A stretch of DNA of 54,857 nt, from positions 1-54,857 of the forward strand of contig JAITUT010000046.1 in assembly GCA_031286325.1 (NCBI GenBank), read 5' to 3'. Made by a program: the position numbers and the translations under genes. The notes below the pieces were generated by a model. It made no database searches. It was given only the letters and a program-made list of their open reading frames with translations, and was not told where the DNA came from. The stretch comes from Helicobacteraceae bacterium (GTDB lineage Bacteria > Campylobacterota > Campylobacteria > Campylobacterales > SZUA-545). This document shows, in pieces, positions 35,964 through 37,026 of this stretch (positions are counted from its first letter, which is position 1; the number at the start of each line of letters is the position of its first letter).

Positions 35964-37026
35964 ATGATTCATATCGCCTTTGGAATTGACGATAATTTCG
36001 CAATGCCCTGCGGAGTGATGATCTATTCTATTCTCGCGACGAACACACACACACACACACACACAGAGAGAGAGAGAGAGAGAGAGAGAGAGAGAGAGAG
36101 AAATAAACTTTCATATCATCTCTGAAAAGTTGTCGGAAGATAGTAAAAAAACCTTGCGCGAAAGCGTGGAGCAGTTCTCAAATTACAAAATCAATTTTTA
36201 CGATCTTACGGGCGAGATATTTGATAATTTATATACAAGTTACGCTTTAACCAAAGCTATATATTATAGGCTTTGCATTGCTGAAATGTTATCCAAAAAT
36301 ATAACAAAATGTTTGTATCTGGATAGCGATATGTTATGCGTAGATTCTATTTACGATCTATACGATACCGATATAAAAAATTATGCCGCTGCCGCCGTCA
36401 TAGATCCGCTTGATACGCATAGAGCGAAAAATCTCGGCTACGATCCGAATCTGGGCTATTTTAATTCGGGAATGCTTCTTTTGAATTTGGATTATTGGCG
36501 GAATAATAATTGTGCGGCTGAAATTATAAAATTTTTGGCGGATAATTCCGACAAATTTTACGATCAAGACGGGATAAATTATATTTTGCGCGGAAAAATA
36601 TTATCTATTTCGCCTGAATACAATATGTTTGCTTCAATATTATGTCAAACTGCCCTGCCCGGAAAAGATTACTTTGACGCTTATAGCAAAACGGTAAAAA
36701 ATCCGTGCGTAATACACTATACAAGCAATCGCAAACCTTGGTTTATTGAATATGACGACGCGGCGAATAATTTATGGTGTTTTGTCAAGTCAAAAACCAT
36801 ATATAAAGATATGGCGTTACTCTCGGTATACAACAGAAGTTTTGACAGCAAAATCAAAACTTTTTTCTATAAACTAAAAATTTTGCGAAATCGCAATAAG
36901 GGTTATTTGTGGTTTAAGAAATTGCGCAACAAAATCCGGGACCGGTTGCAAAAAAGAGAACCGCGAGAATATGCGACGTTAGATGCAAAGTGCGATTTTG
37001 AGGCTCTGCGGCGCAGGTTTGATTAG
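35964..37026 (+). CDS. Family 8 glycosyltransferase, phase-variable, out of frame (OFF)
   Basis: The N-terminal part starts at ATG 35964 behind AAGGA and reads MIHIAFGIDDNFAMPCGVM, a family 8 (LgtC/RfaJ-like) start. The frame is broken by a compound (AC)11(AG)18 tract at 36043-36100 and stops at 36123-36125. The rest of the enzyme continues in another frame from about 36103 (INFHIISEKLSEDSKK onward) to 37026. It has the DSD motif in LYLDSDMLCVDS, LGYFNSGMLLLNLDYW, DQDGINYIL and HYTSNRKPW. Adding one dinucleotide unit, or removing two, restores a 354-residue enzyme. It probably adds a hexose to lipooligosaccharide or another surface glycan. The tract gives Thr-His and Glu-Arg repeats when translated. 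Confidence 0.9.
36043..36100. repeat. Compound dinucleotide microsatellite (AC)11(AG)18
   Basis: Eleven AC units (36043-36064) are followed directly by eighteen AG units (36065-36100), all inside the start region of the family 8 glycosyltransferase. Changes in unit number by slipped-strand mispairing would switch the reading frame. The tract length in this sequence puts the downstream enzyme out of frame. Assembly of such tracts can be unreliable, so the unit number should be read from raw reads. Confidence 0.95.

Follow-up and report, generated by a model that had tools for sequence, protein, structure and literature searches.

The window, by which we mean the whole stretch of 54,857 nucleotides analysed here, is contig C5 of a draft genome (2.05 Mb, 96 contigs, 98% complete) of a bacterium that belongs to an uncultured lineage near Helicobacter and is not H. 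pylori. On its forward strand it carries a family 8 glycosyltransferase (GT8) gene of which the start and the body, as the open reading frames and a PF01501 match confirm, lie in different frames. The 5′ coding part (35964–36044), which encodes MIHIAFGIDDNFAMPCGVMIYSILATN from ATG 35964, leads into a compound microsatellite of 59 bases (36043–36101) consisting of (AC)11 (36043–36064), read as Thr-His, followed by (AG)18 and a trailing A (36065–36101), read as Glu-Arg. A sequence-only reading of this DNA had given both unit counts correctly but, omitting the trailing A, had put the tract at 58 bases. The body (36103–37026), which includes the DxD motif YLDSDML, the sequence HYTSNRKPW and a basic C-terminal tail, occupies the second frame and is free of stops for 308 codons from the tract to TAG 37024–37026.

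As the gene now stands (OFF), the reading frame that starts at ATG 35964 encodes MIHIAFGIDDNFAMPCGVMIYSILATN-THTHTHT-ERERERER and is then closed by TGA at 36123–36125 (+ strand), and the first stop of the third frame after the tract is TAA at 36104–36106 (+ strand), so that the two wrong frames stay open past the tract for only seven and zero codons, respectively. In the frame of the body, the sequence between the last upstream stop (36019–36021) and the tract holds no ATG, GTG or TTG. As the frame of the body is offset by one base from that of the start and a repeat unit measures two bases, one unit more or two fewer would yield a full product of a predicted 354 residues, in agreement with what had been claimed. 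The gene combines several features of an SSR phase-variable gene, namely a pure and slippable repeat within the coding region, a unit that shifts the frame, nearby stops and a body that is otherwise intact.

Contig C42 of the same genome encodes an intact GT8 paralogue of 344 aa that has no tract. DNA identity between the window gene and this paralogue is 83% over query bases 1–81, in the first frame, and protein homology is picked up again just past the tract, in the second frame, the body being 46% identical. Since homology to the tract-free paralogue is found on both sides, the change of frame can be assigned to the (AC)11(AG)18 tract, and the DNA and protein comparisons thereby place it, independently, where the sequence-only reading had placed it. 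At the junction itself, ILRTN-DRDF-SFHI of the paralogue corresponds to ILATN-(tract)-INFHI of the window gene. By way of the paralogue alignment, the 5′ coding part also matches an N-terminal segment in LgtC, which is structurally homologous to the window protein and approximately 30% similar to it in sequence, and the position of the tract falls at a short link in the alignment of the paralogue with LgtC. In LgtC this link presumably connects helix 1 to strand 2. Where the window gene and the paralogue differ, synonymous sites are affected preferentially (pN 0.37, pS 0.80). It was also observed that positions 35964–36044 are 83% identical to the first 81 bases of the paralogue (L005:3406-3486), while the matching stretch of the paralogue body is 65% identical; gene conversion may have acted at the 5′ end of the paralogues, where identity is higher than in the bodies.

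The GT8 body matches PF01501 with an E-value of 1.5e-40 (139.8 bits against a curated cut-off of 24.3), and alignment to solved GT8 proteins reveals that the metal site (YLDSDML) and the HxxxxxKPW motif (HYTSNRKPW) are kept. The most likely function of the enzyme is the transfer of a hexose to a surface glycan, either lipooligosaccharide or another one. Lipooligosaccharide is suggested as the target because the relatives of the enzyme are LPS galactosyltransferases, at scores below the equivalog cut-off, and because lpxB lies approximately 1.1 kb downstream of the GT8 gene. The name LPS 3-alpha-galactosyltransferase (NF011718) was considered and is not given, the score being 99 bits against an equivalog cut-off of 461. 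No orthologue of the window gene was found in six sister-species genomes, nor was a close relative of its body found in scans of genome contigs and viral contigs. Other GT8 genes of the relatives begin without such a tract, and a few of their loci contain short repeats at other positions. Directly after the window GT8 gene comes a DUF3108 gene, which is also present in the sister genomes, where its flanks (approximately 1.5 kb or less) contain neither a GT8 nor a TPR neighbour, and the window GT8 gene therefore looks like a lineage-specific addition.

A tract of this kind is not expected by chance, as a dinucleotide-based estimate gives approximately 1e-19 occurrences of (AG)18 and 4e-11 of (AC)11 in a genome of 2.05 Mb. 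In pattern searches, (AC)6 or longer was encountered in the genome at the GT8 tract only, and (AG)6 or longer at three places, of which the GT8 tract is one; a reversed-pattern control is uninformative for the AG searches, as an AG repeat, when reversed, becomes a GA repeat. An exact search located the AC–AG junction in one of 399 genomes of the order, namely the window genome, which bears out the earlier view that a joined tract is unusual.

The other two places with a long AG tract likewise hold split genes, one encoding a type III DNA methyltransferase and the other a protein with a HAD domain. In the former case (contig C17, L044:3865-5441), an AG tract of 37 bases lies 17 bases past the ATG and places it out of frame with the type III mod gene (PADLOC 4.5e-81; N6_N4_Mtase 3.7e-37), which is followed by a gene with a ResIII domain; the two represent a candidate phasevarion. 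A GTG start located after the tract could yield a 497-aa form of the methyltransferase, which consequently may not be fully off. In the latter case (contig C18, L043:1920-3900), an AG tract of 42 bases lies between a HAD-like domain (222 aa) and a remainder of 423 aa in a different frame, for which there is no Pfam match. The product of a methyltransferase gene adjoining this locus and the 423-aa remainder have in common a C-terminal stretch of about 55 residues, which is nearly identical in the two. The GT8 tract and both other long AG tracts are in the OFF frame, an outcome with a probability of approximately 0.3 by chance.

The relatives examined include the Helicobacteraceae bacterium MAGs Iy174_bin57, Cc175_bin116 and Kf353_bin5, as well as Campylobacterota bacterium MS502-29, which belongs to the family of the window genome but to another genus. 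AG tracts of at least seven units number 10–17 per genome in the five sister species whose genomes have a completeness of 90% or more, against a total of 27 in 102 genomes from other families of the order, and such tracts are therefore enriched in this family relative to the order at large. Among approximately 60 AG tract loci that were read, roughly two thirds have no adjoining long ORF and several are a dispersed repeat, for which reason an AG tract alone is no proof of a switch. Where at least 150 aa follow downstream (19 loci, including the three of the window genome), the tract leaves this region in frame with an upstream ATG at 11 loci and out of frame at eight. The genes concerned include those for a DegT aminotransferase, a SAM-methyltransferase, an acyltransferase with an SGNH domain and an Eco57I-type methylase. 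Orthologous tract genes differ in length and frame between sister species: the DegT gene is ON in L111 and OFF in L125, a gene without a Pfam match is ON in L112 and OFF in L148 (orthology judged by eye from the translations), and the SAM-methyltransferase gene is ON in L171 and L172 and OFF in L173 and L178. Both states are thus seen between species and in genes other than the window GT8 gene. Dispersed and apparently intergenic repeats with AG tracts and shared flanks (for example gacttttcaacttaaacgaagttga) were also noted in the sister genomes, often near contig ends (L123, L124, L129, L130, L119, L108, L133 and L137–L139). Contig breaks near the sister AG tracts had been considered as evidence for mixtures of tract length, an argument that was dropped as several of these tracts are dispersed repeats.

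AC tracts are also employed within the family. In MS502-29, the SAM-methyltransferase gene is ON and carries (AC)8 at the same position where most species carry AG, and these orthologues suggest that AC and AG may replace each other at one site. The gene set to which these orthologues belong (L171, L172, L173, L174, L175 and L178) includes that of Gsp477_bin128, which has almost no tract. Unrelated bacteria were observed to have a ACACACGAGCAAGAGA-like sequence at the tract site, a possible seed for either an AC or an AG repeat. MS502-29 also has a pair of acyltransferase genes (L224 and L225, on its contigs C3 and C123) that are 92% identical over 1054 bases, one copy carrying (AC)10 and being OFF, the other carrying (AC)11 and being ON. 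As AC and AG are used separately elsewhere in the family, the compound tract of the GT8 gene joins two repeat types. Tentatively, and more as a speculation than as an expectation, the AC–AG tract could be a two-part switch in which two abutting tracts with different slippage rates act on one frame, AC and AG replacing each other at the site over time; switching of one gene would then have two components, of which one is faster than the other.

Considering these data together, we propose, with a probability of roughly 85%, that the window GT8 gene is phase variable through slipped-strand mispairing and that the compound dinucleotide tract close to its 5′ end at present keeps it OFF. The intact body, the tract-free paralogue, the nearby off-frame stops, the two other genes split by AG tracts and the ON and OFF states among relatives make this the best supported reading, and it is the one that had been advanced from the sequence. 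Slipped-strand mispairing at replication would add or remove AC or AG units, and slippage in either half, amounting to two bases, would shift the downstream frame, so that one third of all total unit counts would be ON. In the other two frames translation would end no more than about eight codons past the tract, producing a short peptide that lacks the catalytic domain. In the ON state, the Thr-His/Glu-Arg run would be placed at the short link of the paralogue and LgtC, where it is probably tolerated. From the tract genes of the family we infer that slippage at the GT8 tract is active in the population, and the switch would be part of a larger family set of AG- and AC-switched genes for surface structures and DNA methylation.

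The intact paralogue on contig C42 may also be taken to indicate that the window gene is a redundant copy, in which a tract expanded by chance and which is now a decaying pseudogene, the paralogue providing the activity while the frame stays broken. The present broken frame and the lack of an orthologue in the sister species are consistent with such decay, which we nevertheless regard as unlikely: the body shows no other stop or frameshift over its 308 codons, the DxD and HYxxxxKPW motifs are retained, and the differences from the paralogue fall preferentially at synonymous sites, though this mostly reflects older history. Moreover, functional-looking genes of the relatives carry similar tracts in both states.

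An error of assembly or consensus, whereby a tract that is truly in frame was miscounted from short reads, might be suspected in a draft of 96 contigs, as microsatellites are prone to error and contig C17 contains exactly the same AG run. At 59 bases, however, the tract is shorter than usual short reads and its flanks are unique on both sides; furthermore, a miscount of units cannot create a tract, and even with a wrong count the tract would remain switchable. This explanation is accordingly quite improbable, and for the OFF state at issue it is extremely improbable that the gene escapes it altogether through an active enzyme made from TTG 36130 or through ribosomal frameshifting on the tract. 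An ORF from TTG 36130 does exist, and ribosomes could in principle slip on repeats, but the form starting at TTG 36130 would lack the segment FGIDDNFAMP, which aligns to the N-terminus of LgtC. This part of LgtC binds the nucleotide sugar.

For the phase-variable gene that we favour, several known systems provide precedents. HP0208 and jhp0820 of Helicobacter pylori are RfaJ-like, are linked to LPS and are listed as phase variable with repeats (PMC1599737), and HP0208 is a GT8 member (PMC6892558). Like the window gene, they are phase-variable family 8 transferases with repeats, but they belong to another lineage and share only the broad family, and the text consulted describes no joined AC–AG tract for them. 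In mmyCImod of Mycoplasma mycoides, an AG repeat in the coding region results in an OFF state at AG12, with a stop right after the tract, and an ON state at AG10, stops being conserved in both wrong frames (PMC3498834). This layout is the same as that of the window GT8 gene and of the mod gene on contig C17, whereas the gene product differs from the former and the repeat is of a single type. The lgtC gene of Haemophilus influenzae encodes a family 8 LOS galactosyltransferase and takes part in LOS phase variation through repeats that switch it (PMC3938747); it resembles the window gene in being a repeat-switched family 8 gene, as well as through the structural homology of LgtC, while its repeats are tetranucleotides rather than AC and AG. 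The acyltransferase and SAM-methyltransferase genes of MS502-29, from the same family, share with the window gene an AC tract at the 5′ end, although theirs is pure AC and stands right at the gene start and that of the window gene is joined to AG and lies 27 codons in. A literature search on compound microsatellites and phase variation returned one review. Given the published AG-switched type III mod gene and the phase-variable GT8 and lgtC genes, the principle is already known; what is new is the lineage together with its repertoire, as well as the joining of AC and AG in one tract.

The isolate labels of the relatives resemble, as far as we can judge, those of termite gut metagenomes. Campylobacterales MAGs have been reported from termites (PMC9137090). 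The habitat of the bacterium is probably the insect gut. Phase variation has been studied mainly in human and livestock pathogens. The present data point to an extensive set of dinucleotide-switched genes in a little-studied branch of the Campylobacterota; these genes concern surface sugars, acylation and DNA methylation, and a candidate phasevarion is among them. This suggests that gut symbionts, too, benefit from switching their surface at random. The exchange of AC and AG at one gene position in addition provides an opening for studying how repeats of this kind originate and change type.

Poly-G runs of 10–41 bases, of which an estimated 20 or so occur in the window genome, were also observed, some of them beside or inside long ORFs and several located within 50–100 bases of contig ends. 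Examples are found at L213:2308-2348, L211:62-81 and 4918-4940, L212:59-83 and L044:59-76, and these runs are possibly a second phase-variation motif of this genome.
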